From: Lichenihabitans psoromatis
Lineage (GTDB): Bacteria > Pseudomonadota > Alphaproteobacteria > Rhizobiales > Beijerinckiaceae
Reading direction: 5' to 3'
Assembly: GCF_004323635.1 (NCBI RefSeq)
Contig: NZ_CP036515.1
Coordinates: 2,791,501-2,855,500, forward strand
Length of the DNA stretch: 64,000 bases
Positions 39,863 to 54,460 of this stretch are shown one piece after another. The translations under genes and the position numbers were made by a program. The notes under the pieces were generated by a model. It was given only the letters and a program-made list of their open reading frames with translations, was not told the origin of the DNA and did not search any database. How positions within the stretch are numbered: position 1 is the stretch's first letter; every line of letters starts with the position of its first letter.

Positions 39863-40885
39863 TCACCTCAACTCGCGGCAGATCGCCAGGCCAGTATCGC
39901 CGTCGACGATCAATCCTTTGACAAGGCCTGCTCGCAGCAAACCCGTGATCGCGTCGACTTTTTCGAGGCCGCCGGCCAGCAGGACGACATGCCGGCCCCG
40001 CAAAGCTTCCGGCTCGACCGCCAGGGTACGGCTGCTCAGCGGGTGGCGGATTTCGCGTCCCTCCGCGTCGAAGAGCCGGCCGAGCGTATCGCAGACCGCG
40101 CCTTGCGCGCGGATGCTCTGCAACTCGGCGGATGACAGCATGTCGTGAACCCGGAGGAACGACGTCTCGGCGAGTTCACCGGTCGAGATGAGAAAGAGAT
40201 CGGCCGATCGGGCAAGGTCCATCGCGTCGGCGACGGACCGTTGCGACAACAGCACGTCGCGATCCGACTCCGAATCGGCGATGAACGGAACCGGGAGAAA
40301 ATGCCCTTCGCCGCCGGTGCGAGCTGCAAAAGCCTGAACCACCTCGAACGGATTGGATGCGGAGTTGCGCGTCAGCGAGCCAAGCAGCGAGATAAACATC
40401 GCTTCGGCGTTGCGGACGCCTGACAGTTGCTGGGCTACCTGCTCGATCGTGCGGCCCCAACTGACCCCCACCTTGATCGGTCCGTTCTGAAGCTTGCCGC
40501 GAAGGAAGTTCGCGCCTGCATTGCCCACGGCCCGACGCGCCACCAGCCCCTGCATCCGGATCGCTGCCGCATCGGTCACGTCGAGCGGCTCGAAACCGAT
40601 AGCCGGGGTGGAGAGGCAGAAATCGAGGCCGAACGCGTCGGCGATCGTCTGTTCGGTGGCGACGTCCCGCGCCGACTCGTGATGGATCGTGACACTCACG
40701 AGACCGCGCTCGCGCGCCTCTGCCAGCAGGCGGTTCACGCGGCTGCGATGCAGCCCGAGTCGGGTCGCGGTTTCCTCCTGGTTCAATCCGGCCACGTGAT
40801 AGAGCCACGCCGTCCGAACCAACAGGGCATCGTCGCTGTCGTGATTCAGCGCGAGGGTCAGGCGTTTGGGGGCTTTGGCTATCAT
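39863..40885 (-). CDS. SorC/DeoR-type sugar-binding regulator
   Basis: This 340-residue protein has an N-terminal HTH (AWLYHVAGLNQEETATRLGLHRSRVNRLL) and a SorC sugar-phosphate-binding domain with VGVSWGRTI and LLAGGLEKVDAI. The family binds phosphorylated sugars as inducers. It is divergent from the FGGY kinase gene, whose product would make such an inducer. ATG at 40885 was chosen over 40918. It probably represses the kinase and downstream operon. Confidence 0.9.
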   Translation of the reverse strand: MIAKAPKRLTLALNHDSDDALLVRTAWLYHVAGLNQEETATRLGLHRSRVNRLLAEARERGLVSVTIHHESARDVATEQTIADAFGLDFCLSTPAIGFEPLDVTDAAAIRMQGLVARRAVGNAGANFLRGKLQNGPIKVGVSWGRTIEQVAQQLSGVRNAEAMFISLLGSLTRNSASNPFEVVQAFAARTGGEGHFLPVPFIADSESDRDVLLSQRSVADAMDLARSADLFLISTGELAETSFLRVHDMLSSAELQSIRAQGAVCDTLGRLFDAEGREIRHPLSSRTLAVEPEALRGRHVVLLAGGLEKVDAITGLLRAGLVKGLIVDGDTGLAICRELR

Positions 40886-40914
40886 CAAATCAGCTTGACA
40901 AATCCGCTTCCGAC

Positions 40915-40956
40915 GCACAACCTCTGCACAAATGTCGCCGCATAAGTCAAATGTGC
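40915..40956. promoter_or_regulatory. GCACAA repeats, candidate SorC-family operator
   Basis: GCACAA occurs at 40915-40920 and again at 40926-40931, 11 bp apart and so on the same helix face. An inverted TGTGC lies at 40952-40956. These sit in the 141-base divergent interval between the SorC-type regulator and the kinase. Regulators of this family act as tetramers on spaced half-sites. Confidence 0.35.
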
Positions 40957-41026: not shown

Positions 41027-42535
41027 ATGAGCGTCGTGATCGGGGTCGATGGCGGCACCGAAGGCTTGCGCGCCGGTGTGTACAACCGGGCAGGGCGCTG
41101 TCTCGGCGCTGCCTCGCAGAATTACGACACCCATTTCTCGGCCGGAGCGCGGGCCGAACAGAACCCTGAAGAGTGGTGGAGCGCCCTCGGGATCGCGGTG
41201 CGTAAAGCGATGACGGCAGCCGGCGTTTCGCCCAAGGCGGTCGATGCGATTGCGCTCGATACGACCTCCTGCACGGTTGTGGCGCTGGATCGAGACGGGC
41301 GACCAGTTCGCCCGGCCATTCTCTGGATGGATGTGCGCGCCGGTGCGGAAGCCGCCGCCGTGTTGGCGACGGGCGACGAGGCGCTGCGCGTCAATGGCGC
41401 CGGCCAAGGTCCTGTTTCGGCCGAATGGATGATCCCCAAGGCGCTCTGGATCTCGCGACACGAGCCGGACGTCTTCGCGCAAGCCGCCACGATTTGCGAA
41501 TACCAGGATTTCATGACCCTGAGGCTGACGGGGCGACGTGTCGGCAGTCTGACGAACGTGTCGCTGCGGTGGCACTATTCGAGCGAACGCAAGGGCGGCT
41601 GGCCCTATGGCTTGCTGAAAGCGTTGGACCTCGAGATTCTCGCCGATAAATGGCCGTCCGACATTCTGCCGCCGGGCGACGTCATCGGCCCTTTGACCAC
41701 GGCCGCGGCGGCCCACCTCGGATTATCTGAGCGGACCCAGGTCATTCAAGGCGGTGTCGATGCGGTGATCGGGATGATCGGGCTCGGGGTCGCGGCGCCG
41801 GGACAACTCGCGCTCATCACCGGCTCGTCGCATTTGCAGTTCGGCGTCGTGGCCGATGGTGCGATCAGCAAACCGGGGCTTTGGGGTGCCTATCCGGACT
41901 TGCCGATCCCCGGCCGCTACATGCTCGAAGGGGGTCAAACTTCAACCGGCTCAATTGTCAATTGGCTGCGTCGGCTTGGCGGGTCGTCCTTTGATCTAGC
42001 GACCTTGAACGAGGAAGCGGCCGCCCTTCGCCCCGGTTGCGACGGGCTTCTGGTTCTCGATCATTTCCAGGGCAACCGGACGCCTTATACCGATCCGCAT
42101 TCGCGCGGGGCCTTCGTTGGTCTGACGCTGGCGCATGGGATGCCACATCTGTTTCGTGCAGCCATCGAAGGGATTTGCATGGGCACGCGGTCGATCCTCG
42201 ACCGCATGGCGGAAGCCGGCTTCGACGGACGCGAGATCGTGATCGGCGGTGGCGCGGCGAAATCCGACCTTTGGCTGCAGATCCATGCCGACACGGCCGG
42301 TCTTCCGGTCGTGGTGCCGGATGCCGCCGATGCGCCCTTGGTCGGGGCCGCCATCCTGGCCTTCACCGGCATCGGCGTATTCGCGTCCATCTCGGAGGGG
42401 ATCGCCGCCATGGTGCGCCCCGGTCGTCGGATCGAACCGAGACCCGCCGAACGCGCGCTCTATGACGACATCTATCTCCGTTACGTCGAACTTTACCCTG
42501 CGCTCAGACTGTTTCGGTCGACCGCAAGCGCCTGA
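41027..42535 (+). CDS. FGGY-family carbohydrate kinase
   Basis: This 502-residue sugar or polyol kinase has the ATP/substrate motifs GVDGGTEGLRAGVY, ALDTTSCTVVALD, LWMDVRAG and the FGGY C-terminal signature in GGGAAKSDLWLQIHADTAGLPV. It is closest in style to the xylulokinase / ribulokinase / LsrK group, and I cannot name the sugar. GGGAGCG precedes the ATG. It starts an operon that continues with E1 alpha/beta genes, an E2-like protein and a ribose-type importer. It probably phosphorylates the imported sugar before cleavage. Confidence 0.9.
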   Translation: MSVVIGVDGGTEGLRAGVYNRAGRCLGAASQNYDTHFSAGARAEQNPEEWWSALGIAVRKAMTAAGVSPKAVDAIALDTTSCTVVALDRDGRPVRPAILWMDVRAGAEAAAVLATGDEALRVNGAGQGPVSAEWMIPKALWISRHEPDVFAQAATICEYQDFMTLRLTGRRVGSLTNVSLRWHYSSERKGGWPYGLLKALDLEILADKWPSDILPPGDVIGPLTTAAAAHLGLSERTQVIQGGVDAVIGMIGLGVAAPGQLALITGSSHLQFGVVADGAISKPGLWGAYPDLPIPGRYMLEGGQTSTGSIVNWLRRLGGSSFDLATLNEEAAALRPGCDGLLVLDHFQGNRTPYTDPHSRGAFVGLTLAHGMPHLFRAAIEGICMGTRSILDRMAEAGFDGREIVIGGGAAKSDLWLQIHADTAGLPVVVPDAADAPLVGAAILAFTGIGVFASISEGIAAMVRPGRRIEPRPAERALYDDIYLRYVELYPALRLFRSTASA

Positions 42536-42572
42536 GCGCTCGGGCTCCCCTGCTTTTCGAGATCATCGCTTC

Positions 42573-43589
42573 ATGTCCAGCAACACGCCCCTTCTCGACC
42601 TCTATCGCACCATGCGCCGGATCCGCAGCTTCGAGGAGCATGTGGCCGAACTCTACGTCCGCGGCGAGTCGGCCGGTTCGATGCTGCATCTCTCGATCGG
42701 AGAGGAGGGGGCGGCCGCCGGCGTCTGCGCCGCGATGCAGCCGCAAGACAGCTTCACGACTCATCATCGAGGCCACGGCATCTTCCTGGCGCGCGGCGCC
42801 GAACCCGACCGCATGATGGCGGAGATCGGCGGCAAGGAAACAGGGTATTGCCGGGGCAAGGGTGGCTCCATGCACATCGCCGACATGACGCTGGGCCATC
42901 TCGGCGCCAATGCGATCGTGGGCGGGGGCATCTCGCACGTGGTCGGGGCTGGGCTCAGCTACAAGCGGCTCAAAACCGATGCGGTTTCGGTCGCATTCTT
43001 CGGCGACGGCGCCATGCAGCAGGGTATCCTCTACGAAAGCATGAACATGGCGGCCCTGTGGGATCTGCCGGTCGTCTTCGTCTGCATCAACAATCAATAT
43101 GGCATGGGCACGCGCATCGATCGCGCGACCCGGAATGTGGCGTTTGAGAAGCGCGCCGAAGCCTTCGGCCTTAATGCCGAGATGGTCGATGGCGAGGACG
43201 TCGAAGCGGTGTTCCATACGGCTCAGGGACTCGTCGACGCGGCGCGGGCGGGCAAGCCGGGCTTCATGGCCGTGTCGTGTTTCCGCTTCTTCGGTCATGG
43301 CCGCAAAGACAAGAGCCCGTACCGAACCGCGGAGGAGGAGGAAATCGGCCGCAAGCGCGACCCGATCGCCCGCACCCGCGAGACGCTGCTGACGCGCAAT
43401 CTGACGACCGCCGCCGCCCTTGATGCGATCGACGAGGAGGTGACGCGGGAGATGAATGCCACGATCGACTTCACGACGGCCGCCGCCGCCCCGGCGCAAG
43501 CCTCCATGTTCCGCGATGTCTTCGCGGTCGGAGAGCCCGAGCCGGAGCCGCTCCGCACGCGGATCGACCGCATCCTGGCTCGGACCTGA
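42573..43589 (+). CDS. Thiamine-diphosphate-dependent dehydrogenase E1 alpha (AcoA-like)
   Basis: This 338-residue alpha subunit resembles those of acetoin or pyruvate dehydrogenase complexes. It has RIRSFEEHVAELY, GRGKGGSMHIADM and the TPP/Mg motif GDGAMQQGIL...FVCINN. These E1 enzymes cleave a 2-oxoacid or an acyloin and load the acyl group on lipoamide. The frame is open upstream to 42249 inside the kinase gene, but MSSNTPLLDLYRTM is the true start. Its length suits AcoA better than the longer PDH alpha subunits. Confidence 0.9.
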   Translation: MSSNTPLLDLYRTMRRIRSFEEHVAELYVRGESAGSMLHLSIGEEGAAAGVCAAMQPQDSFTTHHRGHGIFLARGAEPDRMMAEIGGKETGYCRGKGGSMHIADMTLGHLGANAIVGGGISHVVGAGLSYKRLKTDAVSVAFFGDGAMQQGILYESMNMAALWDLPVVFVCINNQYGMGTRIDRATRNVAFEKRAEAFGLNAEMVDGEDVEAVFHTAQGLVDAARAGKPGFMAVSCFRFFGHGRKDKSPYRTAEEEEIGRKRDPIARTRETLLTRNLTTAAALDAIDEEVTREMNATIDFTTAAAAPAQASMFRDVFAVGEPEPEPLRTRIDRILART

Positions 43590-43604
43590 GGGGAGAACCA
43601 CGCC

Positions 43605-44582
43605 ATGGTCCAGATCACCTATCGCGACGCCCTCCGCCAAGCCCTGCAGGACGGCATGCGGGCCGACCCCACCATCATCGTCATCGGCGAGGAAGTCGGT
43701 CTCTATGGAGGCGCTTATGGCGTCACCAAGGATTTGATCAACGAGTTCGGTGCGGAGCGGTTGCTCGATACGCCGATCAGTGAACCCGCCATCATCGGAA
43801 CGGCGGTTGGGGCGGCCATGACCGGCCTGCGGCCGATCGCTGAACTCATGTATGTCGACTTCCTCGGCCTCACGATGGACCAGGTGTCCAATCAGGCCGC
43901 CAAGATCCGCTATATGTTCGGCGGCCAGATCGGTGTGCCGATGGTGCTCCGCACGCAGGGTGGCACCGGGCGCTCCGCCGGGGCCCAACATTCGCAAAGC
44001 CTCGAAGCCTGGATCATGCATACGCCCGGTCTCCGGCTCGCGATGCCGGCCACGGCCGAGGACGCCTATCATCTGCTCCGCCATGCCATGACGCTGCCGG
44101 ACCCGGTGGTGTTCATCGAACACAAGGCCCTTTACACCAAGAAGGAGGAGGCCGACCTCGCCACCGCACCTGCGCCATGGGGCAAAGCCCTTGTTCGGCG
44201 CGCGGGACGAGACGTCACTATCGTGACCTATTCCCGCATGGTGCACTACGCCCTCGAGGCCGCCGTCGCCTTGCGGGAGCAGGGCATCGAAGCCGAGGTG
44301 ATCGACCTTCGGACCCTGAATCCGCTCGATATGGACACGGTGGTGGCGTCGGTGAATCGCACCGGTCGGGCCGTGGCTCTGAGCGAGGGCTATCTGACGG
44401 CGGGTGTTGCGGCGGAGCTGGCGGCACGCATCACCGAAGAATGTTTCGACTACCTCGAAGACCCCGTGCTGCGGATCGCCGGCGAGGACATTCCCATCCC
44501 GGTGTCGCCCGCTCTTGAAGCCGGCGCCATCCCGTCCGTTCAACTGATCGTTGATAGCGTCGCCCGCATGGTGCGTCGATGA
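43605..44582 (+). CDS. Thiamine-diphosphate-dependent dehydrogenase E1 beta (AcoB-like)
   Basis: This 325-residue transketolase-like beta subunit partners the preceding E1 alpha. It has RDALRQALQDGM, IGEEVGLYGGAYGVT, DTPISEPAIIGTAVG, and the C-terminal segment VALSEGYLTAGV. GGGGAG lies before the ATG. Its last codons overlap the start of the lipoyl protein (ATGA), so the two are translationally coupled. Confidence 0.92.
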   Translation: MVQITYRDALRQALQDGMRADPTIIVIGEEVGLYGGAYGVTKDLINEFGAERLLDTPISEPAIIGTAVGAAMTGLRPIAELMYVDFLGLTMDQVSNQAAKIRYMFGGQIGVPMVLRTQGGTGRSAGAQHSQSLEAWIMHTPGLRLAMPATAEDAYHLLRHAMTLPDPVVFIEHKALYTKKEEADLATAPAPWGKALVRRAGRDVTIVTYSRMVHYALEAAVALREQGIEAEVIDLRTLNPLDMDTVVASVNRTGRAVALSEGYLTAGVAAELAARITEECFDYLEDPVLRIAGEDIPIPVSPALEAGAIPSVQLIVDSVARMVRR

Positions 44583-46183
44583 CCGCAGTGCTGACCATGC
44601 CGCGCATGGGCGAGACGATGGAAAGCGGGCGGGTCGCGACGTGGCTGAAGAAGCCTGGCGATAGTTTCAAACGCGGCGAAACCATTCTCGAAATCGAGAC
44701 CGATAAGGTGACGGTTGAGATGCCGGCGCTGGACGATGGGCGGCTGGTCGAAATCATCGCGGCGGAGGGCACGGAGGTTGCGGTCGGGGCCGCACTCGGG
44801 CGCTACGATCAGACGAAGGCCGGTGCCTTGGCGCCCACATCTCGCCCACCGGAGCCGGCTCCGGTGCTTCCGACCCTGACCGCGACGCCTCTGACTCTTC
44901 CGCGCATGGGTGAGACCATGGAGGAGGGCCGGATCGTCGCCTGGTTGAAGCAGCCGGGGCAGACGTTCAAACGAGGCGAGGTCCTCGTCGAGATCGAAAC
45001 CGATAAGACAACCGTGGAAGTGCCGGCCCTTGACGATGGCCAACTGCTGGACATCATCGCGCAAGCCGGTGCGTCCGTCGCGGTCGGCGAGCCGATCGGC
45101 CATTATGCCCCCGTCGGCGGCCCCGCCGCGCTAACGGTCCCCGACTCCAGTCCGCCGCAGCCGCCAACAGGCACGTCCCTCGCGGCTGCGCCTTCAGCCG
45201 GGTCGGACGCGGCGCGCGAGGTCGTCGGGCAGGCGTCTCCCGTAAATGCCGGCAGCCGCCTGCGCGCGACCCCGCTCGCACGCCGTCTGGCACGCAACGG
45301 CGGCCTCGACCTTCGGACCCTGACGGGCAGTGGCCGACGCGGTCGCATCGAGAAGCGCGATATCGAGGCTGTTCTCGCAGGTCGCGAGGCTGGGCCAGCG
45401 CTCAAAGGCGAGACGTCGACGCCGGGCGTCCTGTTCCTCGATCTGCCCGACGGTCGTCTTGCCTATCGGGATTGGGCGCCGGCTGGCGCGGCACGCGGCA
45501 CGGTGCTGTTCCTGCACGGCTTCAGCGCCGACGGTGCGACCTGGGCGGGGTTCGCGTCCATCCTGAGCCGGCAGGGTTTGCGCGTTGTCGCACCCGATCT
45601 CCCCAGCCATGGCGCCACCACGATCGAGGCCGAAACGCCGAACACCATGGCGGCCCCCGTGCTGGCCTTGATCGATGCTTTGGCACTGCAGGATTGCCAT
45701 GTCGTCGGCCATTCGATGGGCGCCGCGGTGGCGGTCATGGCGGCCGCCGAGGGTCTTGTTCCGGCCCGGATGACGCTGATCGCGCCGGCCGGTCTCGGCA
45801 GCGAGATCGACGCGGATTTCGTCACCGGCATGGCCCATGCCCGCACGTCCGGCGCCTTGTCGCATCTGCTGCGTCGCCTGGCCCGGCGCGTTCCGCCGAT
45901 GTCCCGGTCGCAGTTGGATCGACTGGTCGCCGACGTCGCCCGTGGGCGGCTCAAGCGGCTCGCCGAAAGCCTCGTCGAAGACGGACGTCAGGCGATCGAC
46001 ATCCTGTCCGAGCTGCGCGCACTCAAAGGTCAGGTCCGGATCGTCTGGGGCGTCGAGGACCGGATCATTCCCTGGACCCAGGTGACCGAGGTTCCGAGCG
46101 TCATCCCGATCCATCTCATCACCGGCGCGGGGCACATGCCGCACTGGGACAATCCGCAAGATTTGGCCGCGCTGTTCACCTGA
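44579..46183 (+). CDS. Double-lipoyl, E3-binding, alpha/beta-hydrolase fusion (AcoC-like E2)
   Basis: This 534-residue protein has two lipoyl domains, about residues 4-77 and 104-177. The lipoylated Lys are at 43 and 143, exactly 100 residues apart, both in ETDK. A peripheral-subunit-binding domain lies about 224-268 (ATPLARRLARNGGLDL). In place of the 2-oxoacid acyltransferase core there is an alpha/beta hydrolase (285-534) with FLHGFSADGATW, nucleophile Ser379 in VGHSMGAAV, Asp in WGVEDRIIPW and His in GAGHMPHWDNP. AcoC proteins of acetoin complexes carry one lipoyl domain and such a hydrolase, from memory. Two lipoyl domains plus a binding domain is richer. No HxxxDG acyltransferase motif is seen. 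No E3 gene is nearby. Confidence 0.9.
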   Translation: MTAVLTMPRMGETMESGRVATWLKKPGDSFKRGETILEIETDKVTVEMPALDDGRLVEIIAAEGTEVAVGAALGRYDQTKAGALAPTSRPPEPAPVLPTLTATPLTLPRMGETMEEGRIVAWLKQPGQTFKRGEVLVEIETDKTTVEVPALDDGQLLDIIAQAGASVAVGEPIGHYAPVGGPAALTVPDSSPPQPPTGTSLAAAPSAGSDAAREVVGQASPVNAGSRLRATPLARRLARNGGLDLRTLTGSGRRGRIEKRDIEAVLAGREAGPALKGETSTPGVLFLDLPDGRLAYRDWAPAGAARGTVLFLHGFSADGATWAGFASILSRQGLRVVAPDLPSHGATTIEAETPNTMAAPVLALIDALALQDCHVVGHSMGAAVAVMAAAEGLVPARMTLIAPAGLGSEIDADFVTGMAHARTSGALSHLLRRLARRVPPMSRSQLDRLVADVARGRLKRLAESLVEDGRQAIDILSELRALKGQVRIVWGVEDRIIPWTQVTEVPSVIPIHLITGAGHMPHWDNPQDLAALFT

Positions 46184-46255
46184 CGGCGCGACCCCACGAG
46201 CAGATCCTGGAGCATACCGGGGCGCACAATAAAACAACCCTTGAAGGAGGAAACG

Positions 46256-47368
46256 ATGACAGACGATATGGAGCCGCGAGGACAGACGCGGCGCAGCCTG
46301 CTTGGCGGATTTGGTCTTGCCGGGGCCGCAAGCATCATGGGCGGCGCGCAACTCGCCCAATTCACGCTGGGCAGCACCCCAGCGTTCGCACAACAAGGCG
46401 GAAAGCCACTATCGGTCGCGGTGGTGGCCCAGCAGATGGCGGCTCAATCCGACCAGCGATCCTGGGACGGCCTGCAGCAGTGGCTGAAGACCACCGGGCT
46501 CGACAAGACCTGGAAGATCACCCAGACCGATGCCAAAGGCGACCCCGGCCAGTTGGTCAGCCAGATCGAGGATGCCATCACGGCGAAAGCCGATGCGATC
46601 CTGGTGCTCTACGGCACGCTCACGGCCGCCCATAGCGCGCTCGACGATCTGGCTAAATCGAAGATCCCGTTTTTCAGCCTCGACTCCGGTTGGCAATCGC
46701 CCGCCATCGCCGACATCACCAGCAACAACTTCGTGATGGGGTCGCAGACCTCGCAATATATGGTCGATAACCTGCTCTCGAAGGGCAAGGACAAGGCCAA
46801 CATCTGCGCCGTCATCGCCAATTTCCACCACGGGACACGCAAGCGCGGCAAGGTCATGAAGTCCGTGCTGTCGGAGAACGAGTGGATCTCGCTGAAGAAC
46901 GAGCGGGTGATCCAATATAGCGGCTTCTACGAAACCACGCAGAACACCGTGAACGACTGGTTGACCACCTACGGCAACGATCTCGACGCGATCTGGTGCC
47001 CGTGGGACGAACCCGCCATGGCGGCCGCCGAGGTGATCGTGTCACGCGGCATGCAGGATCGGGTCTTCGTGGTCGGAGCCGACGGACATCCGACCGCTGT
47101 GGATCGGATGCGGAAGCCGGATTATCCGCTGGTCGCGACTGTCGCCCAGGCCTTCGAGATCTGGGGTGCCTACTCGGGATGGCTCATCAACGAGATCGTC
47201 GGCAAGGGCCGCAATGCCAAGGAGGTCGTCCCCGTCCCGACGGTGGAGTTCCCGGCGCCTTTGCTGGTGAAAGGCGTCAATCTGCCCGAGGCCGGTAAGC
47301 CGACCTGGGACGCGACGGATCTTTACTACATCTACCGCGATCGCGCCCTGAAGGGCATGCGCGGCTGA
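46256..47368 (+). CDS. Sugar ABC transporter substrate-binding protein (CUT2 type)
   Basis: This 370-residue periplasmic-binding protein of the ribose/galactose (Peripla_BP_4) type has a twin-arginine leader, GQTRRSLLGGFGLAG, with cleavage near AFAQQ. The body has AKGDPGQLVSQIEDAI, IPFFSLDSGW, GSQTSQYMVD and VVGADGHPTAVD. AAGGAGG precedes the ATG by 5 bases. It leads the importer module of the kinase operon. Its ligand is presumably the sugar handled by the FGGY kinase. Confidence 0.9.
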   Translation: MTDDMEPRGQTRRSLLGGFGLAGAASIMGGAQLAQFTLGSTPAFAQQGGKPLSVAVVAQQMAAQSDQRSWDGLQQWLKTTGLDKTWKITQTDAKGDPGQLVSQIEDAITAKADAILVLYGTLTAAHSALDDLAKSKIPFFSLDSGWQSPAIADITSNNFVMGSQTSQYMVDNLLSKGKDKANICAVIANFHHGTRKRGKVMKSVLSENEWISLKNERVIQYSGFYETTQNTVNDWLTTYGNDLDAIWCPWDEPAMAAAEVIVSRGMQDRVFVVGADGHPTAVDRMRKPDYPLVATVAQAFEIWGAYSGWLINEIVGKGRNAKEVVPVPTVEFPAPLLVKGVNLPEAGKPTWDATDLYYIYRDRALKGMRG

Positions 47369-47469
47369 GGCGCATCGGTGACACGAGGCAGAAGCTTCCT
47401 GGCACCGATCCACGACAAGCAGTGCGGATGGATGAGCCATCCGCACCAATGATCATCGAGGAAACCACC

Positions 47470-48984
47470 ATGAACGGCCATCTGCCGACAGAGCCACGCC
47501 TGAGGGCGCGCGCCATCGGCAAGACATTCGGGGGAACGGTGGCGCTCAGGGGCGTCGACCTCGACGTCATGCGCGGCGAGATGCTGGCGCTCGTGGGTGC
47601 GAATGGCGCCGGCAAATCGACGCTCGTGAAGATCATCTGCGGGGCTTACAGCACGGACGAAGGCGACCTCCAGGTGGATGGCCGCCCGGTCGCGTTTGCG
47701 TCGGTCGGCGACGCGCTGGCGGCCGGTATCGCCGTGGCTCACCAGCAGGTCGCCATCATCCCGACTTTGACGGCCGCCGAGAACATCATGTTGGGGCAGG
47801 AGCCCCGTCGGTTCGGGCTGATCCAGAATGGCCGACTCAACGCCGAGGCGCGCGCGTTGGCCGAGCGGTTCGGCGTCGACATTCCGCTCGATCGGGAATG
47901 CGGCGACCTTGGCATCGGCGAAAATAAGATCCTCGATATCCTGAAGGCGCTGAAGAGCGATCCGGCGCTGTTGATCCTCGACGAGCCGACGGCTTCGCTC
48001 ACGCTCAACGAGAGCCGCAAGCTGTTTGGCTTCCTGCGCGACCTGAAGGCCAACGGGCTCGCGATCCTCTTCATTTCCCATCACATCAACGAAATCTTCG
48101 AGAATTGTGACCGGGTGGCGGTCCTGAAGGACGGCATCAAGGTTCATGACGGGGCCGTGAACGACACGACTCCTGACGCGGTCATCCGCCTGATGGTCGG
48201 GCGCGCCATCGAGGACGGAGACTGGATCAGCCACGCCGTCGCGGGCGAGGTCTCGGTGCGGCTCACGGACGTGACGATCGGCTCGCTTCAGGTGCCTGAC
48301 TTGACCGTCCATCGGGGTGAGGTGGTCGGCATCGCAGGCGTGCTCGGCGCCGGGCAGACCGACCTGATCGAAGCCATGGCGGGTGGTCGACCCACGCCCG
48401 GTGGCGGCCGGATCACGCTGAACGGCCTCGAACGCCTGCCGCGCAACGTCGACGAAGCGACCGAGCAGGGGATCTACCTCATCGCCGACAATCGGCTCAA
48501 GAAGGCGCTGTTTCCGGGTCTCACGATCGAGGAGAACCTGATGACGGGGTCGCTCGACCACGTGAGCCGGTTCGGCTTCATGCGCGATCGCGAGACGCTT
48601 GCGTCCGCCGAACACGTCATCGGCCAGCTTGGCGTGAAATGCAGCGGGCCCGCGCAAGATATCCTGCAATTGTCCGGCGGCAACCAACAGAAGGTCGCGT
48701 TCGGGCGGTGGCTCGTCCGGATGGCGCGTGGGCCCGCCGCGGTGCCGCCGTTGCTGCTGCTCGATAACCCCACGGAGGGGGTCGATGTCGGCAGCAAGGC
48801 CGAGCTCTATGCGCTGATCCGAGGCTTCGCCAAGCAGGGCGCCTCCGTGGTCATCGCCAGCGCGGAATTCGGCGAGCTGCTGAAGCTCTGCGACCGCATC
48901 TATTGCATCACCGACGACCGGCTGAGCTCCTGCCTCGACCGCGCCGACTTTTCTGAAGAACGACTGCTCTTGGAGGTAAACTGA
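47470..48984 (+). CDS. Sugar ABC transporter ATPase with two nucleotide-binding domains
   Basis: This 504-residue RbsA-type protein contains two NBDs. NBD1 has Walker A GANGAGKST, a degenerate signature LGIGENKILDILKAL, and Walker B LLILDEPTASL. NBD2 has lost a standard Walker A (GVLGAGQTD), as is usual, has signature LSGGNQQKVAFGRWL, but Walker B reads LLLLDNPTEGVDVG, with Asn where the catalytic Glu is expected. GAGGA lies before the ATG at 47470. It overlaps the permease start (ATGA). Confidence 0.92.
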   Translation: MNGHLPTEPRLRARAIGKTFGGTVALRGVDLDVMRGEMLALVGANGAGKSTLVKIICGAYSTDEGDLQVDGRPVAFASVGDALAAGIAVAHQQVAIIPTLTAAENIMLGQEPRRFGLIQNGRLNAEARALAERFGVDIPLDRECGDLGIGENKILDILKALKSDPALLILDEPTASLTLNESRKLFGFLRDLKANGLAILFISHHINEIFENCDRVAVLKDGIKVHDGAVNDTTPDAVIRLMVGRAIEDGDWISHAVAGEVSVRLTDVTIGSLQVPDLTVHRGEVVGIAGVLGAGQTDLIEAMAGGRPTPGGGRITLNGLERLPRNVDEATEQGIYLIADNRLKKALFPGLTIEENLMTGSLDHVSRFGFMRDRETLASAEHVIGQLGVKCSGPAQDILQLSGGNQQKVAFGRWLVRMARGPAAVPPLLLLDNPTEGVDVGSKAELYALIRGFAKQGASVVIASAEFGELLKLCDRIYCITDDRLSSCLDRADFSEERLLLEVN

Positions 48985-50000
48985 TGGTGGCCACGGATCG
49001 AGGATCGGCGCCGACGTCCGGCAATGCATCTCGAGCGCTGCGCGGCAGTCGGCTGGACTGGAGCGCCATCGCGGCCCGGTACGGAACCGTGGCGGCCGCA
49101 CTCGTCATTTTCGTGACGTTCGCGCTGGCGAGCGATCGTTTTTTGTCGGTCGGTAACATCAGCAACATCCTGGTTCAGATCTCGGTGCTGATGATCGTCT
49201 CGTCCGGGCTAACCTTCGCGGTCGCGAGCGGCGAATTCGATCTGTCGGTCGGCCAGGTCGCCAGCTTGTCCGGCGTACTTGTGGCGGGTCTGATGATCTG
49301 GGCCGGATTGCCGGTCGCGGTCGCGATTCTCCTCTCGATCCTGGCCGGCGCCGCCATCGGCGTCGTCAACGGTCTGCTGGTGACGCGTCTGCGGATTCCC
49401 TCGCTGATCGCGACACTCGCCATGGGGCCGATCGCGCTCGGGCTGAACTATGCTTATACGAACGGCGATTCCATCTACGCCAGCATGCCCCCGAGCTTCT
49501 ATTATATCGCAACCGGCAAGATCTTCGGCATCGTGCCGGTTCCGGTCATCATCGCGCTGCTGGTGGTCGGCATCTTCTACGTGCTGCTCAACAAGACGAG
49601 GCTCGGCCGCGGTGTGGTGGCGACGGGAGCCAATATCCAGGCCGCACGCCTCTCGGGCATTCGGGTCAACCGCTATCGGCTCATCGCCCTCGCGTTCTCC
49701 GGGCTCGGGGCAGCGATGGGCGGCGTGATGCTGACGGCGCGGCTCGGCACGGGACAGTCGGGAGCGGGCGACGCCTACCTGCTCGACAGCCTCACGGCGG
49801 TGTTCCTCGGCATGACCGCGTTCAAGCCGGGGCGAGCCACCGTGCAGGGGACGCTGGTCGGGGTCGTGATCATCGGCATGCTCGACAACGGGCTCAACCT
49901 GCTTGGCGCACCCTTCTACCTGCAGAATGAAGTGCGCGGGTTGGTCATGATCGCAGCCGTCAGTCTCGCCGTGATGCGGGCCGAAATCAGGTTCTTTTGA
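48984..50000 (+). CDS. Sugar ABC transporter permease (RbsC type)
   Basis: This 338-residue CUT2 permease has about eight to ten hydrophobic helices. It carries GEFDLSVGQVASLSG in the typical N-terminal half, NGLLVTRLRIPSLIATLAMG and NKTRLGRGVVATGAN, where RbsC-like proteins contact the ATPase. GGAGG and a one-base stop/start overlap couple it to the ATPase gene. An SDR gene follows 20 bases later. Confidence 0.93.
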   Translation: MVATDRGSAPTSGNASRALRGSRLDWSAIAARYGTVAAALVIFVTFALASDRFLSVGNISNILVQISVLMIVSSGLTFAVASGEFDLSVGQVASLSGVLVAGLMIWAGLPVAVAILLSILAGAAIGVVNGLLVTRLRIPSLIATLAMGPIALGLNYAYTNGDSIYASMPPSFYYIATGKIFGIVPVPVIIALLVVGIFYVLLNKTRLGRGVVATGANIQAARLSGIRVNRYRLIALAFSGLGAAMGGVMLTARLGTGQSGAGDAYLLDSLTAVFLGMTAFKPGRATVQGTLVGVVIIGMLDNGLNLLGAPFYLQNEVRGLVMIAAVSLAVMRAEIRFF

Positions 50001-50020
50001 CCATCGAGAAGGAGAGCGTC

Positions 50021-50782
50021 ATGACGGCAGCATCGAACGGGCGCGTCGCGCTCGTCACCGGATCGAGCCGTGGGATCGGGCGTGCGATCGCGCTCGGCCT
50101 GGCGGACGCCGGGTTCGACCTCGTGCTCAACGACCTGGCTCGGCAGAGCGAGGCGCTGGCCGAGGTCAAAAGCGCGATCGAGATGCGCGGCCGGCAGGCC
50201 GTCGTGGTCTATGCGGACGTCAGCCGGAAAGCTGAGGTCACTGCAATGGTGGCCGACGCCATCGCGGCCGTCGGCCATATCGACGCAGTGGTCAACAACG
50301 CCGGTATCCTGATCTCGAACGCGGTCGACGACCTCGAAGAGGAGCAGTGGGATTCCGTGCTCGACGTCAACGCGAAGGGCACGTTCCTGGTCGTACAAGC
50401 CCTGCTGCCGCACATGCGCGCGCGCCGCTACGGCCGCATCGTCAACATCGCGTCGATCGGCGGCAAGCATGGCGCGCAGATGCAGGCTCATTACTCGGCC
50501 TCGAAGGCCGCCGTCATGGGGTTTACCCGCGTGTTGGCTCAGGAGGTCGGTGCTGACGGCATCACGGCCAACTGCCTCTGCCCCGGCATCATCGTGACCG
50601 ACATGGGCCGCACCAATCTCTCGGATGCGGCCAATGTGGCGAAGTGGGAAGGCATCACGGCGCTACGCCGCCTTGGCCAACCGGAAGATGTGGCTGGGCC
50701 GGCGGTCTTCTTGGCCTCCGACGCCTCGGCTTTCGTGACCGGACAGTCGCTGAATGTCTGCGGCGGCATCGTGCTGAGTTGA
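50021..50782 (+). CDS. Short-chain dehydrogenase/reductase
   Basis: This 253-residue classical SDR has TGSSRGIGRA, NNAGIL, a Ser in IASIGGKHG and HYSASK, and ends CGGIVLS. AAGGAG precedes the ATG at 50021 within the tail of the importer operon. It probably oxidises or reduces the polyol or sugar imported by this system. The upstream in-frame ATG at 49997 overlaps the permease stop and is less likely. Confidence 0.9.
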   Translation: MTAASNGRVALVTGSSRGIGRAIALGLADAGFDLVLNDLARQSEALAEVKSAIEMRGRQAVVVYADVSRKAEVTAMVADAIAAVGHIDAVVNNAGILISNAVDDLEEEQWDSVLDVNAKGTFLVVQALLPHMRARRYGRIVNIASIGGKHGAQMQAHYSASKAAVMGFTRVLAQEVGADGITANCLCPGIIVTDMGRTNLSDAANVAKWEGITALRRLGQPEDVAGPAVFLASDASAFVTGQSLNVCGGIVLS

Positions 50783-50823: not shown

Positions 50824-51759
50824 TTACATCGCCGGATGGGTCGCTTTCCACCACCGCGCGATTTCAATCCGCTGCATGAATTCGGCGCCGCCTTTTGCGC
50901 CGACATAGTCGAGAAACTCGCGCAGGGCGTGGATCCGGCTTGCCTGACCGATGATACGCGGGTGCAGGCCGATCGACATCAGGCGTGGATGCTCCTCGCC
51001 TTCCTCGTGCAGCAGGTCGAAGCCGCGTTTCAGGTTGTCGAGATAGTCCGACGGCGAGCCATAGCTCGGCACCAGGCTGAAGCGAGCATCGTTATAGGTG
51101 GCACTGTAGGGAACAACGAGTTGCCGGTGAGCGCCGACCTTGGCGTAGTAAGGGAAGTCGTCGTTGTAGGCGTCCGAATCATATTCGAAGCCGCCCTCTT
51201 CGATCAGGAGCTCGCGCGTGTGGACGGAGGCGCCGTAGCGGCAATACCAGCCAAGCGGACGCTGGCCACATGTCTCGGTGATCGATGCGACCGCACGCCG
51301 AATATGCTCCGCTTCCTCGTCGCGGCTCAGTGTCCAGACTTCCTCCCAGCGCCAGCCATGCGAGCAGGCTTCATGCCCGGCCTCGCGGATCCACGCCGCC
51401 ACCTCGCGATTACGTTCCAGCGCGACGGCTGCCGCAAAAAATGTGACCGGGATTTTATACTGTGTGAACAACCGCTCCAGCCGCCAGATCCCGGCGCGCG
51501 AGCCGTATTCGTAGACCGACTCTGCGCAGAGGTCGCGATAACGCGGATCCATGGCGTAGATGGACTCGGTCATGCCATCGTTACGTCCGTCCCCGTTCGG
51601 ATGGGCGTTTTCCGATCCTTCCTCGTAGTTGATCACGATGCTGATCGCCACGCGTCCGCCGTTCGGCAGCGGCACGCGCGGGGCGGAGCGCCCATAACCG
51701 ACGAAATCGCGCTCGGGGCCCGGGACCGGAGTTCCGACAAACGGCTCGAAGCTGCTCAC
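50824..51759 (-). CDS. PuuE-like polysaccharide-deacetylase-family protein
   Basis: This 311-residue NodB-homology protein is close to PuuE-type allantoinases. It has RDFVGYGRSAP, IVINYEEGSEN, YEYGSRAGIWRLERLF, the metal-region CSHGWRWEE, and GLHPRIIGQ. PuuE proteins hydrolyse allantoin or act on other N-acyl/cyclic amides; here the substrate is unknown. It begins at a GTG that overlaps the stop of the isochorismatase-family gene (GTGA), so the two were coupled. It converges on the SDR of the importer operon. Confidence 0.87.
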   Translation of the reverse strand: MSSFEPFVGTPVPGPERDFVGYGRSAPRVPLPNGGRVAISIVINYEEGSENAHPNGDGRNDGMTESIYAMDPRYRDLCAESVYEYGSRAGIWRLERLFTQYKIPVTFFAAAVALERNREVAAWIREAGHEACSHGWRWEEVWTLSRDEEAEHIRRAVASITETCGQRPLGWYCRYGASVHTRELLIEEGGFEYDSDAYNDDFPYYAKVGAHRQLVVPYSATYNDARFSLVPSYGSPSDYLDNLKRGFDLLHEEGEEHPRLMSIGLHPRIIGQASRIHALREFLDYVGAKGGAEFMQRIEIARWWKATHPAM

Positions 51760-52477
51760 GAACGGTCCTCGCGTGTTGTGCCGATCCTTTCGAGATAGGC
51801 CAGCACGTCGTCACAGGGCATCACGTCACCGCAAAAACGGTTCATGTCAAAGAGGCTGATCCGGTGGCTGATGTCGATGCGGTCGAAGACTGCCTCTTCG
51901 GGGATGATGGTGAAGAAGTTATGCTGCTCGCTGTCGATGGCGGTTGCTCGGACGCAATTGCTGGTCGAGCCTCCCGTGACAATCACAGTATCGATCTGCT
52001 TATCGATCAGCAGCGAGAGAAGGGGCGTACCGAAGAATGCGCTTTTTTTCTTCTTGTCGAGGACGATCTCGCCCTTTAGCGGGCGCAGCGGCGTGACGAT
52101 CTCGGCACCAAAAGTCCATCGAAATAGAGGTTCTCGCCGCGTCCGATCCCGGCGCCCACCTTGCGGTGGAACATGCCACAATCGTCGGCGTCGGGGTTGA
52201 CGATGAAGCGGGTCTGAAACACGGGAACGCCATGGCGACGCGCGGAGGTTTGCAGAGCAGCGATCCATTCAACGGCGGCAAAACCAACCTCGCCGCAGGC
52301 AAGCGGGAAATGCGCTGCATTATCGCTCGCGCCCGGAATACCGGTCATATAATTTTGGGCGTCGACGATCAGGAGGGCCGGTCGCTTGCCGAAGCCGGCC
52401 GTCTGACCCCATTTTCCGCGGCGAATGACCTCGCGGTCGCTGTCACTGAGGATGTCCTGCCAACTGTCGGAAGTCAT
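51756..52477 (-). pseudogene. Isochorismatase-family hydrolase, frameshifted
   Basis: The N-terminal part (from ATG at 52477: ALLIVDAQNYMTG, then VFQTRFIVNPDADD, up to NLYFDG) and the C-terminal part (FGAEIVTPLRP, VTGGSTSNCVRATAIDS) lie in different frames. They meet near 52110-52117. One missing base between GATGG and ACTTTT breaks the frame; adding one base would give FDG-TFGAEIV, which fits the family. The catalytic Asp (VDAQ), Lys (LDKKKKSAF) and Cys (SNCVRATA) are all otherwise present. This may be a recent mutation or a sequencing error. Homologs include N-carbamoylsarcosine amidase and ureidoacrylate hydrolase. Confidence 0.85.
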
Positions 52478-52523
52478 AGGCTCGTCTCCGCTTCAATCTT
52501 TTTTTGGCCCGTGCGTTCGACGC

Positions 52524-53270
52524 TTAAGCCATGTGGTCGCCGCCGTTCATGTTCAGGCAGGCACCGACGAAGTACGCGCCCGCATAGCTCGCCAAGAGCA
52601 TGACGGCCGGCGCAACTTCGTCGACAGTGCCGAAGCGTTTGATCGGTAAGCCGGCGACCTTTGCGGCGACCCACTCGGGCGGTAGCGTATCTTTGATTGG
52701 GGTATCGATCGGGCCGGGCGCGATCGCATTGACCGTGATGTTGTCGTCGATCACTTCGTAGGCCAGAGCGCGTGTGAAGCCGAGGACCCCGGCCTTCGTG
52801 GCACAATAATGGACCATTGCCGGCGCCCCCTTGTAGCCGCTCTGCGAGGCGGTGTTGATGATCCGCCCCCAGCGCTTGCGCTGCATGGCCGGGAGGACCG
52901 CCTTCGTGCAGACGAATAAGCTTCTCAGATTGACCCGCATCATCTCGTCCCAGACCTCAGCCGACATGTCGACGAGCGGGACGGCATTGTCGATGCCAGC
53001 ATTGTTGAAGAGGATGTCGATGTCGCCAAACGCCTCGACGATCGTCGCGAAAGCGGTTTCGACCGCGGGCTCGTCGGCGACATCCGCGACCGCTGCGAGT
53101 GCCCTCAACCCTCTGCCGCACAAGTCGGCTGCGACGCGCTCGGCGTTCGCACGGTTCCAGTCGACCACGCCGACGGCGGCGCCCGCCTCGGCGAGCGCGA
53201 TCGCCACCGCCTTGCCGATTCCGCTGCCGCCGCCCGTGACCACAGCAACCCGCGTTGTGAACTCAGACAT
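52524..53270 (-). CDS. Short-chain dehydrogenase/reductase
   Basis: This 248-residue classical SDR has TGGGSGIGKA, NNAGIDNAVP, a Ser in NTASQSGYKG, HYCATK (catalytic Tyr and Lys) and ends MNGGDHMA. It is the first gene of a minus-strand run followed by the isochorismatase-family and PuuE-like genes. A CTGTCTACAG palindrome lies in its promoter region, shared with the divergent Zn-alcohol dehydrogenase. Confidence 0.9.
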   Translation of the reverse strand: MSEFTTRVAVVTGGGSGIGKAVAIALAEAGAAVGVVDWNRANAERVAADLCGRGLRALAAVADVADEPAVETAFATIVEAFGDIDILFNNAGIDNAVPLVDMSAEVWDEMMRVNLRSLFVCTKAVLPAMQRKRWGRIINTASQSGYKGAPAMVHYCATKAGVLGFTRALAYEVIDDNITVNAIAPGPIDTPIKDTLPPEWVAAKVAGLPIKRFGTVDEVAPAVMLLASYAGAYFVGACLNMNGGDHMA

Positions 53271-53325
53271 CCCAGCCCTCGCAACCCTTCACGTCTGCAG
53301 ATGAGCCTATACGTCAGATTTAAAA

Positions 53326-53335
53326 CTGTCTACAG
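53326..53335. promoter_or_regulatory. CTGTCTACAG palindrome, candidate GntR operator (site A)
   Basis: CTGT-N2-ACAG with the downstream context AAGAC lies between the divergent SDR and Zn-dehydrogenase genes. It matches sites at 57354 and 59222, suggesting one regulator, probably the GntR/FCD protein at 58245-59021. Confidence 0.6.
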
Positions 53336-53379
53336 AAGACAAAGAAGCGACCCTGAGGGCGCGGGAGCGGAGAGAGCCG

Positions 53380-54414
53380 ATGAAAGCGATTGTGTTGCGG
53401 GAGCACGGAGGGCTCGAACAGCTTCGTTATGAAACGGTGGCGGATCCTGTCGTGACCGGAAACACGGTCGTTGTTCAAATCCGAGCCTCCGGGTTGAATC
53501 ATTGCGACATCGATGTGCGGAACGGCACATTTGGGGTCGAGCAGAAACTCCCGCATGTCATGGGCGTCGATGCGGCCGGCGAGGTCGTCGCGATTGGTCA
53601 CAACGTGAGCCTCTGGAAAGTGGGCGATCGGGTGGCGCCGCATTTTGTGGTGTCCTGCGGACATTGCGCTCACTGCCGAAGTGGGCGGGAAAACATCTGC
53701 GAGAATGCCGACATCCTTGGCGTAACGGTCTGGGGCGGTTACGCCGAAAAGCTGATGGTGCCGGAAAGCAATCTCATCGCGCTCCCGGACAGTGTCTCGT
53801 TCATCGACGCGGCCGCCTCCATGGTCCCGTTCGCCACGGCGTGGGAAGCACTCATCACGACGGCGCGCCTGCAGGCCGGTGAGACAGTGCTGATCAATGC
53901 GGCCGGCGGCGGAGTTGGCTCCCATGCGGTTCAGATCGCTCGATTGGCCGGCGCGCGCGTGATCGCCTCGGTCGGGGCCGACGACAAGATCGACAAGGTG
54001 ATGGCGCTCGGGGCGGACGCCGTCATCAACTATCGCAAGGAAACACTCGTCGACGGCGTGCAGCGCTTGACGAGCGGCAGAGGCGTCGATGTCGTCCTGG
54101 ACGGGGTCGGCGGCGACATCCTCAAGCAGAGCCTCAAAGCTCTTGCTGATGGCGGCAGGCTCGCGTCCATCGGCGCGCAAGGCGGCGAGATCGTCGATAT
54201 CGACATGATCGAGTTCTTCCGCAAGCACATCACGCTTCTCGGTTGCGGGCGTTCGACGCGCGAGATCGCCGCCACGGTCCTCGGACTTATGGCAGCGGGG
54301 CGGCTCAAGGCCGTCCTCCAGGGCACGTTCCCCCTGGCGAAGGCGGCGGACGCGCAGGCGCTAATGGAGAGCCGCAACTTCTTCGGCCGGATCGTCCTGC
54401 AACCGGAGGCGTGA
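53380..54414 (+). CDS. Zinc-binding alcohol dehydrogenase family protein
   Basis: This 344-residue MDR protein has the N-terminal GroES-like fold with SGLNHCDIDVRNG, a structural-zinc loop with four cysteines (CGHCAHCRSGRENIC), WGGYAEKLMVP, and the NAD(P)-binding motif NAAGGGVGSHAVQIAR. It resembles quinone oxidoreductase-like alcohol dehydrogenases. It reads divergently from the SDR and is followed by a hairpin and a convergent Fe-dependent dehydrogenase. Substrate unknown. Confidence 0.9.
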   Translation: MKAIVLREHGGLEQLRYETVADPVVTGNTVVVQIRASGLNHCDIDVRNGTFGVEQKLPHVMGVDAAGEVVAIGHNVSLWKVGDRVAPHFVVSCGHCAHCRSGRENICENADILGVTVWGGYAEKLMVPESNLIALPDSVSFIDAAASMVPFATAWEALITTARLQAGETVLINAAGGGVGSHAVQIARLAGARVIASVGADDKIDKVMALGADAVINYRKETLVDGVQRLTSGRGVDVVLDGVGGDILKQSLKALADGGRLASIGAQGGEIVDIDMIEFFRKHITLLGCGRSTREIAATVLGLMAAGRLKAVLQGTFPLAKAADAQALMESRNFFGRIVLQPEA

Positions 54415-54421
54415 GCCTCGA

Positions 54422-54449
54422 TGCCGATGCGCTTGAAACCGCATCGGCA
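54422..54449. terminator. Bidirectional hairpin between convergent dehydrogenases
   Basis: TGCCGATGCG and CGCATCGGCA form a perfect 10-bp stem with an 8-base loop. It starts 7 bases after the Zn-dehydrogenase stop and ends 11 bases before the stop of the convergent Fe-dehydrogenase. A true T-run is lacking, but the placement and perfect stem make a shared terminator likely. Confidence 0.6.
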
Positions 54450-54460
54450 ACATATTTCGC

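Follow-up and report, generated by a model that had tools for sequence, protein, structure and literature searches.

A conserved operon of Lichenihabitans psoromatis encoding an FGGY kinase, an acetoin dehydrogenase-like complex and a ribose-type importer: possible cleavage of a phosphorylated 1-deoxyketose

The 64,000-nucleotide stretch of the Lichenihabitans psoromatis genome analysed here (contig NZ_CP036515.1, positions 2,791,501-2,855,500 of the forward strand; hereafter the window) carries an operon at 41027-50782 (+ strand) that encodes, in order, an FGGY-type sugar kinase, the E1-alpha, E1-beta and E2 components of a complex resembling acetoin dehydrogenase, the binding protein, ATPase and permease of a sugar importer and a short-chain dehydrogenase/reductase (SDR). 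We give about an even chance to the following class of mechanism: an imported sugar is converted to a 1-deoxyketose phosphate, which the E1/E2 complex cleaves to acetyl-CoA and an aldose phosphate. This proposal draws on the gene content and layout of the operon, its conservation as a module, the placement of its E1 in a distinct clade and a signature of basic residues that this E1 has in common with E1s encoded beside DRL (DXR-II), an enzyme that interconverts 1-deoxyxylulose 5-phosphate (DXP) and methylerythritol 4-phosphate (MEP).

In the proposed route, a small deoxy sugar or the corresponding polyol would be taken up by the CUT2-type ABC importer, oxidised to a 1-deoxy-2-ketose (or adjusted as one) by the SDR and phosphorylated at its far end by the FGGY kinase; we infer every catalytic step, and the substrate, from the genes and from comparison with other loci. 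Thiamine diphosphate on an alpha2beta2 E1 would then attack the C2 carbonyl and split the C2-C3 bond with release of an aldose phosphate. The two lipoyl arms of E2 would accept the acetyl unit, and the alpha/beta-hydrolase-type domain of that protein would hand it on to CoA. An E3 of the host would reoxidise the arms, and a phosphorylated intermediate would induce the operon through its SorC regulator. The leading candidate is the conversion of 1-deoxy-D-xylulose 5-phosphate to acetyl-CoA and glyceraldehyde 3-phosphate, and it is possible, if somewhat doubtful, that DXP itself is the substrate of the window E1. According to PMC3424233, purified pyruvate dehydrogenase (PDH) acting on pyruvate and glyceraldehyde produces 1-deoxyxylulose, Escherichia coli XylB phosphorylates 1-deoxyxylulose, and E. 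coli aceE (PDH E1) mutants make DXP in vivo. By analogy, the cleavage proposed here would be this PDH chemistry reversed, with a lipoyl acceptor. The initial annotation of the sequence had already suggested that a phosphorylated 1-deoxyketose might yield acetyl-CoA and an aldose phosphate. That suggestion is supported in part by the conservation of the module, the DRL-linked E1-E2 genes, the common basic residues and the reverse chemistry in PMC3424233; its scheme lacked an SDR step, although the SDR belongs to the operon.

All reading frames of the operon are open, and the intergenic gaps are, in gene order, 37, 15, -4, 72, 53, -1 and -4 bp. The kinase (41027-42535) contains the FGGY_N (PF00370) and FGGY_C (PF02782) domains. 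The start of E1-alpha (42573-43589) was set at 42573, giving a protein of 338 residues with an E1_dh domain (PF00676, 221 bits), the catalytic histidine and a GHxR[KM]DK motif, while E1-beta (43605-44582) contains the Transket_pyr (PF02779) and Transketolase_C (PF02780) domains; both are thiamine-diphosphate subunits. The E2 (44579-46183) has two stretches of lipoyl domain (PF00364), each with an ETDK motif, an E3_binding domain (PF02817) and an alpha/beta-hydrolase domain (PF12697) with GHSMG and GAGH motifs; a Pfam search of the operon proteins found no classical 2-oxoacid-dehydrogenase acyltransferase domain in it. The importer has all three components of a CUT2 (ribose-type) ABC system: a Peripla_BP_4 binding protein (46256-47368), an ATPase with two ABC domains (47422-48984; two stretches of PF00005; best NCBIfam profile AraG, 412.8 bits, below the cut-off of 689) and a BPD_transp_2 permease (48984-50000; PF02653, 147 bits). 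The SDR (49997-50782, probable ATG at 50021; PF13561/PF00106, adh_short) carries GSSRGIG (Rossmann) and YSASK motifs. Divergently transcribed, 108 bp upstream of the operon and thus beyond the start of 41027 given initially, lies a gene for a SorC/DeoR-type sugar-binding transcriptional regulator (39863-40918, - strand; PF04198, 173 bits; NF053881 DeoR, 146.3 bits, below the cut-off of 420). The FGGY kinase, E1/E2-like genes, ribose-type importer and SorC-type regulator named in the initial annotation are therefore all present as judged by Pfam, NCBIfam and layout. Neither an E3 gene nor a sigma-54 regulator gene occurs within the operon. Downstream (50824-55618) are open reading frames of mixed orientation which resemble, by eye, a polysaccharide deacetylase/allantoinase-type protein, an SDR and zinc-type and iron-type alcohol dehydrogenases; on the same visual inspection, there is no sign that they are part of the module. 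The genome (4.84 Mb, 3 contigs) also has a separate PDH-type E1 (L002) and DXR-I, and no DRL was found in it at E≤1e-60.

The initial annotation described the E1 as AcoAB-like and the complex as acetoin dehydrogenase-like. For the E2 the acetoin-type resemblance holds, as it exceeds the cut-off of NF011457, the acetoin dehydrogenase dihydrolipoyllysine-residue acetyltransferase subunit (409.3 versus 307 bits); the E1, by its position in a tree, is not an acetoin dehydrogenase E1. E1-alpha falls below the PDH equivalog cut-offs (TIGR03182, 311.0 versus 393.85; TIGR03181, 199.8 versus 411.35), and E1-beta is above the cut-off of the PDH-beta subfamily NF006667 (373.4 versus 321) and below that of the equivalog NF008854 (374.9 versus 454). 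The tree was built from 75 concatenated E1-alpha/beta pairs, taken from loci in which both subunits exceeded 290 aa, leaving aside small search loci, and was rooted at its midpoint, with its deep branching order not resolved. Loci were labelled FGGY-type or DRL-type by co-location and acetoin-type or acyl-type by neighbouring genes. The 20 FGGY-type pairs, including that of the window, form one clade (support 0.88) with only two additions, L018 and L067; L018 has a sugar-importer context and a kinase of a nucleoside/PanK-like family (275.7 versus a cut-off of 250). This clade is separate from the host PDH, from three pairs adjoining acyl-CoA dehydrogenases and from three acetoin-type pairs, namely L161 and L165, which lie beside butanediol dehydrogenase genes, and L160, an unannotated Acinetobacter record that we take to be of acetoin type. 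A housekeeping PDH was rejected as the identity of the window complex because the genome holds the separate PDH-type E1, and a true acetoin operon was rejected on the basis of tree position and gene context.

Relatives of the operon were gathered by searching with the kinase (385 genomes of the class), with the E2 (named genomes and 397 genomes of the order) and with E1-beta (plasmids), and their genes were called with a simple codon-usage script and local tblastn rather than taken from curated annotation. In the genomes of the order, the E2 matched 29, including that of L. psoromatis itself, and part of these loci are FGGY-type or DRL-type. Searching plasmids with the E2 gave no match at 1e-60, though L088-L091 carry E2 genes 38-46% identical by local search; E2-based counts are therefore too low. 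Twenty other loci were selected for the presence of both an FGGY kinase and an E1, some of them truncated by contig ends. E2, like the kinase and both E1 subunits, is present in all 20 as a consequence of the selection, SorC in 17, the importer ATPase and permease in 15 and the SDR in nine. Conserved co-occurrence, which the initial annotation had named as a check on its hypothesis, was thus found, with all nine parts in 9/20: L016 (Natronohydrobacter), L019 (Aliiruegeria lutimaris), L056, L057, L060, L061, L088 (Sinorhizobium meliloti Ak57), L090 (Shinella sumterensis) and L091 (Tritonibacter mobilis). Rhizobium hidalgonense is a further named example of the conserved module. The gene order of the window is kept in L056 and L057, while the other nine-part loci have the importer genes first; the gene set is conserved and the gene order is not. 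The module recurs as a unit more than chance would allow.

Some loci depart from this arrangement. Four loci belonging to one genus (L062-L064 and L066) lack the SDR; in them, a D-psicose-3-epimerase-like gene (156.3 bits, below the cut-off of 300) precedes E1-alpha, which would fit a stereochemical correction of the free ketose ahead of the kinase step. These four loci also have a DhaK-like kinase and an importer with two permeases next to the module. An AhpD/carboxymuconolactone-decarboxylase-like protein of approximately 110 residues is encoded directly after E2 in 7/20 loci (for example, at L060:8881-9213, at 10.3 kb in L016 and in L088-L091); it does not occur in the window, and electron exchange with the lipoyl arms is a possible role for it. 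In S. meliloti Ak57 (L088:9972-11290), the E2 is annotated in two pieces, a hypothetical protein and an alpha/beta hydrolase, and looks broken. The neighbours of the Natronohydrobacter module (L016:14168-19043) include a lumazine synthase-like gene (RibH, by eye), a second SorC gene, a second FGGY kinase gene and a gene pair with distant E1 similarity that resembles a split transketolase.

More distant E2 matches led to clusters that have no FGGY kinase and instead encode a 440-residue oxidoreductase homologous to PDB entries 3upl and 3upy (508.9 and 616 bits), the latter being the Brucella abortus DXR-II according to PMC3847144. DRL was found in 124 of the 397 genomes of the order. Of 92 DRL places with at least 51% identity, 60 were counted; another 10, several of which are E1-linked, had come from the E2 search and do not enter the count, nor do the remaining 22. 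DRL, E1-alpha, E1-beta and E2 are contiguous in 17 of the 60. A glucitol-type phosphotransferase system (PTS) accompanies seven of the 17, a PfkB kinase another seven and, in the stretch covered, neither of these the remaining three, two of which are incomplete. Named examples are found in S. meliloti Rm41 (pRM41A), Sinorhizobium americanum and Agrobacterium tumefaciens CFBP7129, which have lpdA (3/3) and lipA (2/3) as well, and in Aminobacter aminovorans. One-operon arrangements of DRL, E1-alpha, E1-beta and E2 with a glucitol-type PTS or a PfkB kinase/ABC importer were seen at L092-L108, L138, L152-L154 and L167. A plasmid of Priestia aryabhattai (L157:1899-10763) carries genes for a glucitol-type PTS, GutM, E1-alpha, E1-beta, E2, lpdA and a sugar-binding regulator, with no DRL in the stretch covered; this may be a Gram-positive counterpart of the DRL-linked clusters.

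Substrate and dimer residues described in PMC3847144 were compared among these proteins. K191, K193, T229, H250, R320, E174, Y322 and G121 are kept in all 30 E1-linked DRLs, and the unlinked DRLs likewise keep K191, K193, T229, H250 and R320 (44/44). Both groups are therefore DXR-II by this measure, and the linked proteins are not marked as special. DXR-I was found in 6/47 relatives tested; all six carry an E1-linked DRL, which is the sole DRL in five of them. Seven genomes (G644, G716, G702, G563, G466, G568 and G752) yielded no DRL other than an E1-linked one and no DXR-I, absences that count as support rather than proof as draft genomes can hide genes, and IspG is present in all six of the seven that were tested. 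The E1-linked DRL therefore probably makes MEP in these seven genomes, and E1-linked DRLs probably interconvert MEP and DXP. If they do act on DXP/MEP, then the most likely substrate of the neighbouring E1 is DXP, and the most likely route in these clusters would lead from methylerythritol through MEP (made by the PTS or a kinase) and DXP to acetyl-CoA and glyceraldehyde 3-phosphate. The DRL-E1-E2 operons, including those on Sinorhizobium and Agrobacterium plasmids, are thus candidate 2-C-methylerythritol catabolic operons.

The FGGY-type and DRL-type E1s have basic residues in common close to the catalytic histidine of E1-alpha (residues are numbered from base 42591; 6 is to be added for the 338-residue protein starting at 42573). 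At +2 from the invariant GH catalytic histidine (position 238), arginine is found in 20/20 FGGY-type proteins and lysine or arginine in 29/30 DRL-type proteins; at +5 (position 241), the former have lysine (20/20) and the latter arginine (30/30). The host PDH has methionine and proline at these two positions. The three acetoin E1s have glutamate throughout at +2 and E, A and P at +5, and the three acyl-type E1s again have glutamate at +2, with P, K and K at +5. Position 24 of E1-alpha is similarly basic in the FGGY and DRL types and not in the PDH, acetoin or acyl E1s. Both positions beside the histidine are basic in 5/18 unclassified pairs (L018, L020, L067, L069 and L073), which lie within or adjoin the two clades. 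The DRL locus L140, whose distant E1 lies approximately 5 kb away and has glutamate at +2, breaks the pattern. We suggest that the basic residues beside the catalytic histidine may bind the phosphate of the substrate.

Taken together with the DRL-linked clusters, the window operon could be one of two front ends to a single DXP-cleaving reaction, a reading that we put forward tentatively and think rather less than probable. The reaction would be an oxidative cleavage that depends on CoA and lipoyl groups and amounts to a reversal of DXP synthase in which acetyl-CoA takes the place of pyruvate. In the window, 1-deoxyxylulose or its polyol would enter by way of the importer, SDR and FGGY kinase. 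In many Hyphomicrobiales, a polyol PTS, or an ABC importer and PfkB kinase, together with DXR-II would convert 2-C-methyl-D-erythritol to MEP and then to DXP.

The remaining genes of the operon say little that is narrower about the sugar. The best NCBIfam match of the kinase is XylB (TIGR01312) at 277.8 bits, short of the xylulokinase equivalog cut-off of 380.25, and it is below every equivalog cut-off listed. Its nearest PDB relatives by profile are 3gg4, the ribulokinase 3qdk, 3ifr and XylB (2itm), from which the kinase is pentulokinase-like and nothing narrower. The closest counterpart of the SDR elsewhere in the same genome is 41-44% identical; assigning a substrate from the SDR family was abandoned as the profile scores are uninformative. 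A predicted model of the binding protein (pLDDT, the predicted local distance difference test, of 80.3) has the ribose-binding proteins 4wt7, 3l49 and 4ry8 as top structural neighbours, within approximately 2 Z units of one another, and aligns equally well to several sugar binders, one of them a binder of 5-methylthioribose.

Several of these observations weigh against cleavage of a 1-deoxyketose phosphate, or against DXP in particular. Because the top neighbours of the binding-protein model tie, the importer ligand is not identified by it. FGGY-type and DRL-type E1s are not one clade in the E1 tree, and the basic pair is not exclusive to them, as lysine occurs at +5 in 2/3 acyl-type E1s and basic residues occur in some unclassified E1s. 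Furthermore, FGGY-type E1s have invariant residues with no match in the DRL type (His58 and His103 of alpha, Arg123 and His156 of beta), and the sugar of the window may therefore differ from the DRL-type substrate. Among five class-level kinase relatives (E≤1e-100), L021 alone adjoins E1/E2 genes and L022-L025 do not, so that this family of kinases must have roles in other pathways as well. Finally, FucU-, FGGY2-, DhaK- and fuculose-aldolase-like genes adjoin the module in variants and point to other sugars.

The main rival explanation, which we consider unlikely, is that the same machinery acts on an ordinary ketose phosphate, such as xylulose 5-phosphate or a hexulose 6-phosphate, to give glycolyl-CoA and an aldose phosphate; glycolate would result instead if the thioester were hydrolysed by the E2 alpha/beta-hydrolase domain, with its hydrolase fold and GHSMG and GAGH motifs. 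FGGY kinases of the ribulokinase/xylulokinase branch normally take unmodified ketoses, and His103 of E1-alpha, invariant in the FGGY type where the DRL type has asparagine or serine, acetoin E1s methionine and PDH phenylalanine, could give a more polar donor pocket. Inspection of the modules, however, showed no recurring gene for glycolyl-CoA or glycolate, and the sister complexes linked to DRL point to an acetyl donor. The differences between window-type and DRL-type E1 residues would also suit a distinctly unlikely substrate, the phosphate of a 1-deoxyhexulose or longer sugar: after oxidation beside the methyl group and phosphorylation, deoxyhexitols such as fucitol or rhamnitol would be split into acetyl-CoA and a sugar phosphate of four or more carbons. 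FucU-like mutarotase and fuculose-kinase/aldolase-like genes do adjoin some modules, but FucU occurs in only 2/20 and FGGY2 in only 3/20 of the loci, where they may serve other sugars, and nothing within the window indicates a hexulose.

An ordinary acetoin/2,3-butanediol or 2-oxoacid dehydrogenase housed in a sugar operon, with the SDR as acetoin or butanediol dehydrogenase, would account for the E2 and E1-beta scores against NF011457 and NF006667 and for the match of the SDR to the acetoin reductase profile TIGR02415 (199.8 bits; cut-off 304.35). We regard this as improbable, as the E1s of L160, L161 and L165 and of the host PDH group elsewhere in the tree, the operon has no sigma-54 regulator, and a dedicated kinase and sugar importer are conserved with E1/E2. 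The FGGY kinase, SorC-type regulator and ribose-type importer also recall in outline the autoinducer-2 (AI-2) uptake and breakdown (Lsr) operon, in which case E1/E2 would replace LsrF/LsrG. This explanation is very improbable and was rejected: all Lsr equivalog scores are far below their cut-offs (LsrK 157.3/528, LsrR 80.3/486, LsrA 300.9/586, LsrC 118.1/388 and LsrD 99.6/500), there is a single permease instead of two, and the kinase is nearer to 3gg4 and ribulokinase than to the AI-2 kinase 5ya0.

Among known systems, the acetoin dehydrogenase complex (AcoABC) resembles that of the window in its thiamine-dependent E1-alpha/beta, in an E2 of the same NCBIfam family and in cleaving an acyloin to acyl-lipoamide and an aldehyde, as would be expected of the window complex. 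It differs in that the window E1 belongs to another clade and has basic rather than acidic residues beside the catalytic histidine, the window E2 has two lipoyl domains, and the genes alongside are those of a kinase, importer and SorC regulator, with no butanediol dehydrogenase or sigma-54 regulator. The PDH complex has the same E1-alpha/beta architecture, E3-binding domain and lipoyl arms, whereas the window E1-alpha is below the PDH equivalog cut-off and the genome's own PDH-type E1 is separate. Split-transketolase pathways, such as that of apulose 4-phosphate transketolase, likewise proceed from a kinase to a thiamine enzyme encoded by two genes, which cleaves a ketose phosphate; there the C2 unit goes to an aldose acceptor, while in the window the lipoyl E2 would form a CoA thioester. 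DXR-II/DRL (3upl/3upy), which has DXP as product or substrate, the proposed E1 substrate in the sister clusters, is absent from the window, whose genome instead has DXR-I. In PMC3847144, DXR-II is presented as a biosynthetic enzyme. Our literature search, with most subscription journals outside its coverage, found no report of methylerythritol or 1-deoxyxylulose catabolism by such a complex. The component enzymes belong to known kinds; their combination and the proposed catabolic reaction appear to be new within the literature searched.

If the proposed cleavage is correct, it would constitute a sugar route without aldolases, transketolase or pyruvate, leading straight from a ketose phosphate to acetyl-CoA and an aldose phosphate, and it would provide a role for genes that are mis-named as "acetoin/pyruvate dehydrogenase" in many rhizobia and marine Alphaproteobacteria. 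The DRL-linked clusters would further suggest that bacteria can feed on methylerythritol and deoxyxylulose that leak as carbon from the isoprenoid pathway of plants and bacteria. PMC3847144 raises the question of how DXR-II could have arisen and been maintained in strains already equipped with DXR-I. Should both front ends indeed feed one DXP-cleaving reaction, DXR-II would be catabolic in nature, having been co-opted into isoprenoid synthesis by some lineages, and this would explain its persistence in genomes with DXR-I.

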